A stretch of 64,000 nt of DNA from contig VEMY01000001.1 of assembly GCA_009711825.1 (NCBI GenBank), positions 81,899 through 145,898 on the forward strand, in the 5' to 3' direction. The notes under the pieces were generated by a model that was not told where the DNA came from, made no database searches, and worked only from the letters and a program-made list of their open reading frames with translations. This DNA comes from Bacillota bacterium (lineage in GTDB: Bacteria; Bacillota; Proteinivoracia; UBA4975; VEMY01). The translations under genes were made by a program, and so were the position numbers. Below, piece by piece: positions 20,091 through 22,180 of this stretch (positions within the stretch are counted from its first letter, which is position 1; every line of letters begins with the position of its first letter).

Positions 20091-22070
20091 ATGAGCGAGG
20101 ATATTCTGTTTGCGCTTGATATTGGAACACGAACTGTTGTCGGTCTCTTATGCAAAGTTGCTTCCGGTGGAGTATTGCGGGTAGAGGCCCATCATGTAGA
20201 GGCGCACCCCCAGCGGGCGATGCTCGATGGGCAGATTCATGACGTGGCGGAAGTGAGTACTGTGATTCGGAGAGTGAAGGAGCAGCTTGAAGCAGCAGCT
20301 GGTTGCACTTTGGAGCGAGCTTCCATCGCCGCTGCCGGCCGCGCCCTGTCCACGCTGCGGGCTGACTCAACGCTTAAATTTGACGCCACCCGTGAAATCA
20401 CCAGAGAAGATTTACGCAATCTAGAGATGCAGGGACTGGCTGTCGCCAAAGAAAAGGTTTCCGGACAATCAGAAAATCTTTACTGTGTCGGTTACAGTCC
20501 GGTGGCATATACCCTTAACCAACAATTGATTGCAAACCCTGTAGGCCAAAAGGGTTCGGAAGTCGGTGTGGAGTTAATCGCAACTTTTTTGCCGCAAGTG
20601 GTGGTGGACAGTCTGTTCAGCGCTCTTGCCAAAGCCGGATTGGCGGTGGGCAGTCTTACCCTGGAGCCAATCGCCGCAATGACTGTGGCCATCCCGCCGC
20701 GTCTGCGCATGTTGAATCTGGCGCTAGTGGACGTCGGTGCCGGAACATCTGATATTGCAATCAGTCGGGAGGGTACGATATTCGCCTATGCCATGGTGGA
20801 TAAAGCCGGCGACGAAGTGACGGAAGCATTGGCTCAGCACTATTTGCTAGATTTCAATACTGCGGAATCTGTAAAACTGGCCCTGGGCGAGCGTGAAGAG
20901 CTGGAATTTACCGATGTTTTGGGGAACAGATACCACTTGGCCCGGGAGGACATACACAAAGTTATTGAACCTGTGGTCGATGAGCTGGCCGCAGCGATTG
21001 CCCGCACAATTAAAGAACATAATGGCGGTGTAGCGCCGGCGGCGGTATTCTGTGTTGGTGGTGGCAGCCAGACCCCGCTGCTCCGGGAGTATCTTTCTAT
21101 TCACTTGGACATTCCCCAGGAGCGTACGGGTATTCGGCGCCGGGAAGCCCTTGATAATATCGAATTTGACAGCCCGGATTTGGCCGGGCCGGAGGTGGTG
21201 ACTCCGCTTGGCATCGCCCTTACCGCCCTGAGACCACAAGGTGAACACTTCATTCAGGTTCAGGTAAATGGCGACAGTGTCACTTTGTTTAATGTGCAGC
21301 AAAGTAATGTTGCCCAGGCCCTGTTGCACAGTGGCATGGATTTAGCCGAACTCCTGGGGGCAAGGGGGCAGCCGCTTGAATTTAACTTCAACGGCCAAAT
21401 CCGAAGAATTCCAGGACAACCGGGTGTTCCTGGCCGTGTACGGATAAATGGACAACCGGCTACCCTGGAGAGCAGTATCGGTCCTGGGGACAGTATCGAG
21501 GTTAGTGTTGGCAGCCGCGGCGACGATGCCAAGTGCAATTTGGAGGATCTGGCTGAAGCGGGCTGCACATTGGATCTGGTAGTCAACGGCGAGTTGGTCT
21601 CGGTGCCAGAAATGCGTTTGATTAACGATTTGCCTGCATCTGGAGACAGCGAGATTGGCCCCGGTGATGCGGTTGAAATCCGCCTGCCGGCGACTGTAGC
21701 TGAATTGGCCGCCCTTATGGATGTGGATATCGAGCAATTTGCAATTACCATCAACGGCCAATTGGCGGGAGGCGAAAGTCCTGTGTCTAGCGGGCAAAGC
21801 ATAGAGTTTGTGCAACGTGAATTGGCTGATGCACCTGTCGCCGCTTCCGGTGCAAGCTCTGATTCTGCTGGCTTATCGGTTTCGGTAAATGGCAGGAATG
21901 TTACTTTGCCTCCGGGGCAGAATCAGTTAATGCACGCTCTGGCCGCTGCCGACATTGATTGCTCTTCCGCCCGGGGACGACTGATTATTAGCGTCAACGG
22001 ACGGGAAGCGGAATTTACCACCGAGTTAGCAGATGGTGACCGCATTGAGGTGTTCTGGACTGCCATGTGA
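20091..22070 (+). CDS. FtsA/PilM-like actin-fold ATPase with beta-grasp-like C-terminal repeats
   Basis: A 659-residue protein. Residues 1-385 form an actin-like ATPase of the FtsA/PilM type: phosphate-1 motif FALDIGTRTVVGLL, then SLTLEPIAAMTVA, phosphate-2 motif LALVDVGAGTSDIAIS, and adenosine motif VFCVGGGSQTPLLREYL. No C-terminal amphipathic FtsA anchor is seen. Instead residues 386-659 hold successive units of a beta-grasp (ThiS/MoaD-like) look, each with a strand ending VNG and closing with GPGDSIEVSVG, GPGDAVEIRLP or ADGDRIEVFW. It is not the divisome ftsA (no ftsZ nearby). It may polymerise or act as a scaffold at the envelope; the function is unknown. The ribosome site GGGGGTGATAC precedes ATG 20091. 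Confidence 0.75.
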   Translation: MSEDILFALDIGTRTVVGLLCKVASGGVLRVEAHHVEAHPQRAMLDGQIHDVAEVSTVIRRVKEQLEAAAGCTLERASIAAAGRALSTLRADSTLKFDATREITREDLRNLEMQGLAVAKEKVSGQSENLYCVGYSPVAYTLNQQLIANPVGQKGSEVGVELIATFLPQVVVDSLFSALAKAGLAVGSLTLEPIAAMTVAIPPRLRMLNLALVDVGAGTSDIAISREGTIFAYAMVDKAGDEVTEALAQHYLLDFNTAESVKLALGEREELEFTDVLGNRYHLAREDIHKVIEPVVDELAAAIARTIKEHNGGVAPAAVFCVGGGSQTPLLREYLSIHLDIPQERTGIRRREALDNIEFDSPDLAGPEVVTPLGIALTALRPQGEHFIQVQVNGDSVTLFNVQQSNVAQALLHSGMDLAELLGARGQPLEFNFNGQIRRIPGQPGVPGRVRINGQPATLESSIGPGDSIEVSVGSRGDDAKCNLEDLAEAGCTLDLVVNGELVSVPEMRLINDLPASGDSEIGPGDAVEIRLPATVAELAALMDVDIEQFAITINGQLAGGESPVSSGQSIEFVQRELADAPVAASGASSDSAGLSVSVNGRNVTLPPGQNQLMHALAAADIDCSSARGRLIISVNGREAEFTTELADGDRIEVFWTAM

Positions 22071-22109: not shown

Positions 22110-22152
22110 AACCAAGTGTTTTTAAGCACTATGTGCTTAAAAACACTTGGTT
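22110..22152. terminator. Perfect 20-bp hairpin between the FtsA-like gene and the atp promoter
   Basis: The left arm 22110-22129 (AACCAAGTGTTTTTAAGCAC) and right arm 22133-22152 are perfectly complementary, with loop TAT. There is no T run after it, so it is either an unusual terminator relying on its internal A/T stretches or a regulatory palindrome. Its last base is the first base of the atp -35 box. Confidence 0.55.
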
Positions 22153-22180
22153 TGCAAAAATGGGAACTGCAAAGTATAAT
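22152..22180 (+). promoter_or_regulatory. Sigma-A promoter of the atp operon
   Basis: TTGCAA (22152-22157) and consensus TATAAT (22175-22180) with a 17-base spacer, 19 bases before the first atp gene. The leader would be only about 12 bases. Confidence 0.78.

Follow-up and report, generated by a model that had tools for sequence, protein, structure and literature searches.

SepF overlaps with FtsA in B. subtilis and is essential where a lineage has no FtsA (PMC8178401), a protein that is also absent from C. difficile (PMC10693644). In Caulobacter MreB, the attacking water is positioned by E140 and T167 (PMC4051119). E. coli FtsA hydrolyses ATP despite having no Glu at the position of A188, an active-site residue whose substitution in A188V impairs rapid hydrolysis (PMC10213515). 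Searches of the open-licence literature for a second FtsA, an FtsA paralogue or an FtsA-like protein in Bacillota returned nothing on the family described here, and two beta-grasp surveys in that literature do not mention FtsA. Here we describe a beta-grasp FtsA-like protein, encoded in a 64,000-nucleotide stretch of Bacillota DNA (the window), whose family belongs to the same branch of the actin superfamily as FtsA and PilM.

The initial annotation proposed an FtsA/PilM-type head joined to a tail of repeated ThiS/MoaD-type beta-grasp units, and profile searches, AlphaFold2 (AF2) models and Foldseek comparisons agree with both halves of this proposal (Table 1). The full-length model, built from a 94-sequence alignment, has a pLDDT of 91.6, with low confidence solely in the linker between the second and third tail domains. 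Together with the profile matches, this high-confidence model predicts that the fold is an FtsA-type actin fold followed by a beta-grasp tail. The Pfam models PilM_2, FtsA and ThiS each score above their own cut-offs on the open reading frame, and the head is matched by FtsA, PilM_2 and MreB models. Because the NCBIfam models for FtsA (TIGR01174, 113.5 bits; cut-off 175.85), PilM (TIGR01175, about 61 bits (61.3); cut-off 133) and ThiS (24.5–30.5 bits; cut-off 37.45) all fall below their thresholds, no curated name applies. Against the PDB, FtsA structures rank first for the head (best match E. coli FtsA 7q6d, TM 0.85 on the target) and PilM structures second, with EutJ and Hsp70-family proteins lower in the list. 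The 1C subdomain is an insertion specific to FtsA and PilM.

Table 1 Features of the beta-grasp FtsA-like gene and its 3′ flank (window coordinates).
Feature	Position	Strand	Evidence
Whole gene, beta-grasp FtsA-like protein, 659 aa, ATG start	20091..22070	+	ORF, AlphaFold2
FtsA-type actin-like ATPase head (predicted), residues 1-380	20091..21230	+	Pfam/NCBIfam, Foldseek, tree
Phosphate-1 motif L9-D-I-G-T-R14	20115..20132	+	Alignment of 94 homologues
Approximate 1C (SHS2-type) subdomain, residues 84-166	20340..20588	+	Weak PF02491 match 99-162; AF2 secondary structure
E192, position of the MreB catalytic Glu (CcMreB E140)	20664..20666	+	Alignments; PMC4051119, PMC10213515
Phosphate-2 motif D214-V-G-A-G-T-S-D221	20730..20753	+	Alignments
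V295, site of the invariant Arg of canonical FtsA (E. coli R300)	20973..20975	+	Alignments
Adenosine motif V322-G-G-G-S326	21054..21068	+	Alignments
Beta-grasp domain 1, residues 386-475	21246..21515	+	AF2
Beta-grasp domain 2, residues 484-576; weak TGS match 525-574	21540..21818	+	AF2, Pfam
Flexible linker, residues 577-593	21819..21869	+	AF2 (pLDDT <50 at 578-591)
Beta-grasp domain 3, residues 594-659, canonical ThiS-type order	21870..22067	+	PF02597 over cut-off
Perfect 20-nt inverted repeat, 3-nt loop, between the gene and the atp operon	22110..22152	.	

The tail comprises three beta-grasp domains. Modelled by itself (residues 386–659), it reaches a pLDDT of 92.0 and adopts a ubiquitin fold, neither disordered nor unrelated to the fold first proposed. 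Its top Foldseek matches are linear tetra-ubiquitin, multi-ubiquitin proteins from Citrobacter and E. coli, and ISG15; the E-values are significant, with a low global TM (about 0.2) and a large rmsd that we take to reflect different inter-domain angles. Consistent with this fold, 58 homologous tails searched against Pfam matched Ub-Mut7C (43/58), TGS (38/58) and ThiS (35/58). The strand endings noted originally are also more than coincidence: seven 'VNG'-type ends and four 'GD'-type closing strands occur in the tail and none in the head, against an expectation of 0.3–0.4 and a maximum of three in 2,000 shuffles. The models and this motif test together rule out a disordered tail or chance repeats. 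No member of the family (0/94) ends in Gly-Gly, and the protein is therefore neither a sulfur carrier nor a conjugated ubiquitin. The AlphaFold2 model contains no C-terminal amphipathic helix and ends instead in a beta strand bearing W656, a residue of domain 3 that is near-invariant across the family. In two Negativicutes homologues (L035 and L108), a Pro/Ala-rich C-terminal extension follows the last beta-grasp domain.

The two phosphate motifs and the adenosine motif on which a full actin-type nucleotide fold had been proposed are well preserved: D10-I-G-T13, D214-V-G-A-G-T-S-D221, A-E-x-x-K262 and G323-G-G show little or no variation among 94 homologues. D10, E192, D214, T219 and K262 are each present in 94/94, and R14 in 93/94. 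E192, the Glu of an L-E-P-I-A-A motif, aligns with the second Glu of MreB EEPMAAA and, with an offset of 4, with A188 of E. coli FtsA; 20 canonical FtsAs carry K (5), Q (5), N (4), E (3), M (2) or T (1) at this position. At the position of T219, canonical FtsAs have T, S or V. Because an invariant Glu occupies the MreB catalytic position and is absent from most FtsAs, the beta-grasp FtsA-like protein is probably an ATPase; as E. coli FtsA hydrolyses ATP with no Glu there, E192 is suggestive only. Judged from its residues, the nucleotide site is complete, more so than that of E. coli FtsA, and the activity itself is predicted.

The fusion, initially presented as though rare, is common. Scanning genome contigs yielded at least 594 relatives, with Clostridia, Negativicutes and Brevibacillus/Aneurinibacillus among the named ones, and the family (called at E below 1e-60 in genomes at least 90% complete) is present in 114 of the 199 Bacillota genomes sampled. 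In a 72-head tree with MreB as the outgroup, the family forms a single clade (100/100) that is sister to, and not inside, the canonical FtsA clade (97/96); FtsA and the family together split from PilM at 96/84. A rare, one-off or recent fusion is thereby ruled out, and the family is ancient, widespread and FtsA's closest sister. One homologue (L109, G005:C55:37965-40209) is split over several frames, possibly by a frameshift or sequencing error.

Given this kinship, the protein could be part of the divisome and a partial substitute for FtsA where FtsA has been lost (Lachnospiraceae, Propionispora), associating with FtsZ and contacting the membrane through its tail or a partner. We take R300 of E. 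coli FtsA to matter for FtsZ binding, and R300 and E303 to lie in the FtsZ-binding region. By alignment, the Arg is present in 20/20 canonical FtsAs versus 1/94 family members, and the Glu in 20/20 versus 31/94. The deepest family branch (L103) retains the FtsA-type E-P-R motif, which the other 93 members have lost. This near-complete loss of the Arg and the absence of the C-terminal helix argue against a role as an FtsZ membrane tether.

Co-occurrence points the same way. Counting FtsA as present when it scores above the TIGR01174 cut-off (114/199 genomes) and with SepF found in 174/199, carriers of the family protein divide into 61 genomes with both FtsA and SepF, 15 with FtsA only, 38 with SepF only and none with neither; the corresponding counts for genomes without the family protein are 29, 9, 46 and 1. 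Of the 38 FtsA-less carriers, 35 are firm, and three (G070, G134 and G159) have a divergent FtsA homologue below the cut-off. SepF is thus missing from 0/38 carriers without FtsA versus 15/76 with it (Fisher p = 0.002, uncorrected for kinship), and it has been lost solely alongside FtsA, bar the one genome that also lacks the family protein. By hand count, the 38 FtsA-less carriers span 18 families and the 24 genomes with FtsA and no SepF span 14. That SepF is lost beside FtsA and never beside the family protein alone likewise argues against an FtsZ tether.

The absence of FtsA is not an assembly gap, both because the surveyed genomes are at least 90% complete and because no ftsA lies between the ftsQ-like gene and ftsZ in five Lachnospiraceae and Propionispora (loci L247–L252). 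The ftsQ-like gene directly precedes ftsZ in two Butyrivibrio, Roseburia porci, [Clostridium] polysaccharolyticum and Pseudobutyrivibrio ruminis; in Propionispora, one small gene of 109 codons separates the two. In Ruminiclostridium papyrosolvens and Brevibacillus parabrevis, ftsA occupies the slot before ftsZ.

Several side observations concern these division proteins. None of the genomes surveyed from the window's class (G000, G001, G003, G004 and G008–G011) has SepF, and this class therefore probably relies on FtsA. Two SepF paralogues occur in G032, G040, G073, G091, G109, G121, G137, G148, G167, G190 and G194, in most of which FtsA is absent or scores weakly. In G121, G148 and G194, which belong to one family, the FtsA match falls into separate pieces in one frame, as though the first half of FtsA carried an insertion or had diverged strongly.

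Taken together, we consider a divisome stand-in unlikely. FtsA is the closest sister, the protein is kept in the FtsA-less genomes, ftsA is missing before ftsZ in the named examples and deep-branching L103 keeps the FtsA-type Arg. Against this, the protein is never the sole candidate tether, SepF being present in 38/38 FtsA-less carriers; the FtsA Arg and Glu have largely been lost; linkage to the dcw cluster is absent from every locus read; and 76 of 114 carriers also encode canonical FtsA. The family's job probably differs from FtsA's anchoring of the division ring.

The genomic setting singles out no pathway, because neighbours differ between lineages. As first described, the gene lies between lipid and pyrimidine genes and the atp operon: glyA, upp, a dCMP deaminase gene and a flippase-like gene of the LPG-synthase-TM type lie upstream in the window, and the atp operon downstream. 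Promoter-like hexamers lie 3′ of the inverted repeat (22152–22180), at a count not above chance. We named the neighbour genes by reading their sequences, and by Pfam in the cases searched. The statement that ftsZ and pil genes are missing held for the vicinity and not for the genome, which encodes ftsZ, pilM and mreB elsewhere: a canonical FtsA (365.6 against TIGR01174) sits beside FtsZ and a DivIB/FtsQ-like gene, and PilM and two MreB-type proteins are also encoded. Neighbourhood surveys of 80 and 79 loci found no conserved operon, the neighbours being merely lineage-specific. Lachnospiraceae show the order polA-coaE-gene-walJ-ACT-DUF711 (about 40/80 loci), Ruminiclostridium has nth and a GGDEF-type gene, and Syntrophomonas and Thermosyntropha have murA-mbl-flgG-tagA-gene-ctsR-mcsB-clpC. 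Heme genes lie near the gene in about ten loci, and a CheR methyltransferase gene lies directly or close upstream in 11 of 79, from several families (for example, L239:3718-4503). HD-GYP, GGDEF or MCP-type genes are frequent neighbours too, and in most Lachnospiraceae a WalJ/YycJ-type gene of the metallo-beta-lactamase fold lies close on the 3′ side (for example, L084:10203-11003).

Every carrier of the family protein has MreB, and the MreB-negative genomes in the sample all lack the family protein. This hints at a role in shape or the envelope, weakly, because MreB is present in 193/199 genomes. Sporulation shows no clear tie: Spo0A occurs in 175/199 genomes and is absent from some carriers (G040, G050, G055, G141 and G167).

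We favour a scaffold with interaction modules, as the initial annotation had suggested. Our reading, held tentatively, is of an ATP-controlled cytoplasmic scaffold that works beside FtsA and docks partners through its tail, and is not an FtsZ membrane tether; both the ATP switching and the protein docking are what we infer from the predicted architecture. The head would bind and hydrolyse ATP using the MreB-type catalytic Glu and Thr, and the ATP cycle would switch its conformation or drive short actin-like filaments. The beta-grasp tail, in place of the FtsA membrane helix, would dock onto a protein partner, and the scaffold would most likely serve the cell envelope or morphogenesis. It is possible, if doubtful, that with this family the Bacillota possess a third, hitherto unrecognised system of the FtsA superfamily in addition to FtsA and PilM, namely actin-like filaments that hydrolyse ATP and whose subunits present ubiquitin-fold adaptors in arrays; this separate cytoskeletal scaffold would be ancient enough to be common to Clostridia, Negativicutes and Brevibacillus-type Bacilli, and would have outlived FtsA in, for example, Lachnospiraceae.

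An ATP-driven chaperone or assembly factor resembling Hsp70 or EutJ, in which the head's cycle would open and close the beta-rich tail on a client, seems improbable. The layout of ATPase head, linker and beta-rich C terminus fits, as do the EutJ and Hsp70-family proteins in the Foldseek list and the invariant Glu-Pro motif common to MreB, which Hsp70 also shares. However, the head is arranged as in FtsA and PilM, with FtsA clearly its nearest relative by Foldseek and in the tree, the tail is a ubiquitin fold rather than the Hsp70 beta-sandwich, and no consistent client gene was found nearby in 79 loci. Very unlikely is a PilM-like docking protein, which would supply a membrane machine with its cytoplasmic ring and grip a short membrane-protein peptide in its 1A/1C groove: family-specific residues are strongly conserved in the early head (H39, R42, M44, D46, Q48, H50 and R84) and PilM structures rank second by Foldseek, but the family is separate from the PilM clade, pil or secretion genes are absent near the gene in the loci read, and the window's genome encodes a true PilM separately.

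Recognising the family matters for genome annotation. General profiles would file the protein under FtsA, PilM or ThiS, hiding both the loss of true FtsA in Lachnospiraceae and others and the presence of a different FtsA-related protein in more than half the Bacillota sampled; where FtsA presence is scored with a loose profile, the family protein is counted wrongly. Should filament formation prove true, the family would be a widespread, uncharacterised bacterial cytoskeletal element.

Compared with known systems, the protein shares with FtsA (TIGR01174) the actin fold with its SHS2/1C subdomain, at about 23% identity. By contrast, FtsA has a C-terminal amphipathic helix where the family protein has three beta-grasp domains, an MreB-type Glu occurs in 3/20 FtsAs versus 94/94 family members, and the family gene lies outside the dcw cluster in every locus read. 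PilM (TIGR01175) also has the actin fold with 1C, in a separate clade and with its pil genes not near the family gene. ThiS, MoaD and Mut7-C ubiquitin share the fold of the tail, which lacks their C-terminal Gly-Gly; bacterial multi-ubiquitin proteins share its tandem arrangement, here fused to an actin-type ATPase. Finally, alignment shows that the family shares with MreB an active-site Glu-Pro and the G-x-G-T of the phosphate-2 motif; MreB and EutJ are distant in the tree, and the family differs from them in having 1C instead of 1B; the catalytic Glu and phosphate-2 Thr of MreB are both found in the family, as E192 and T219.
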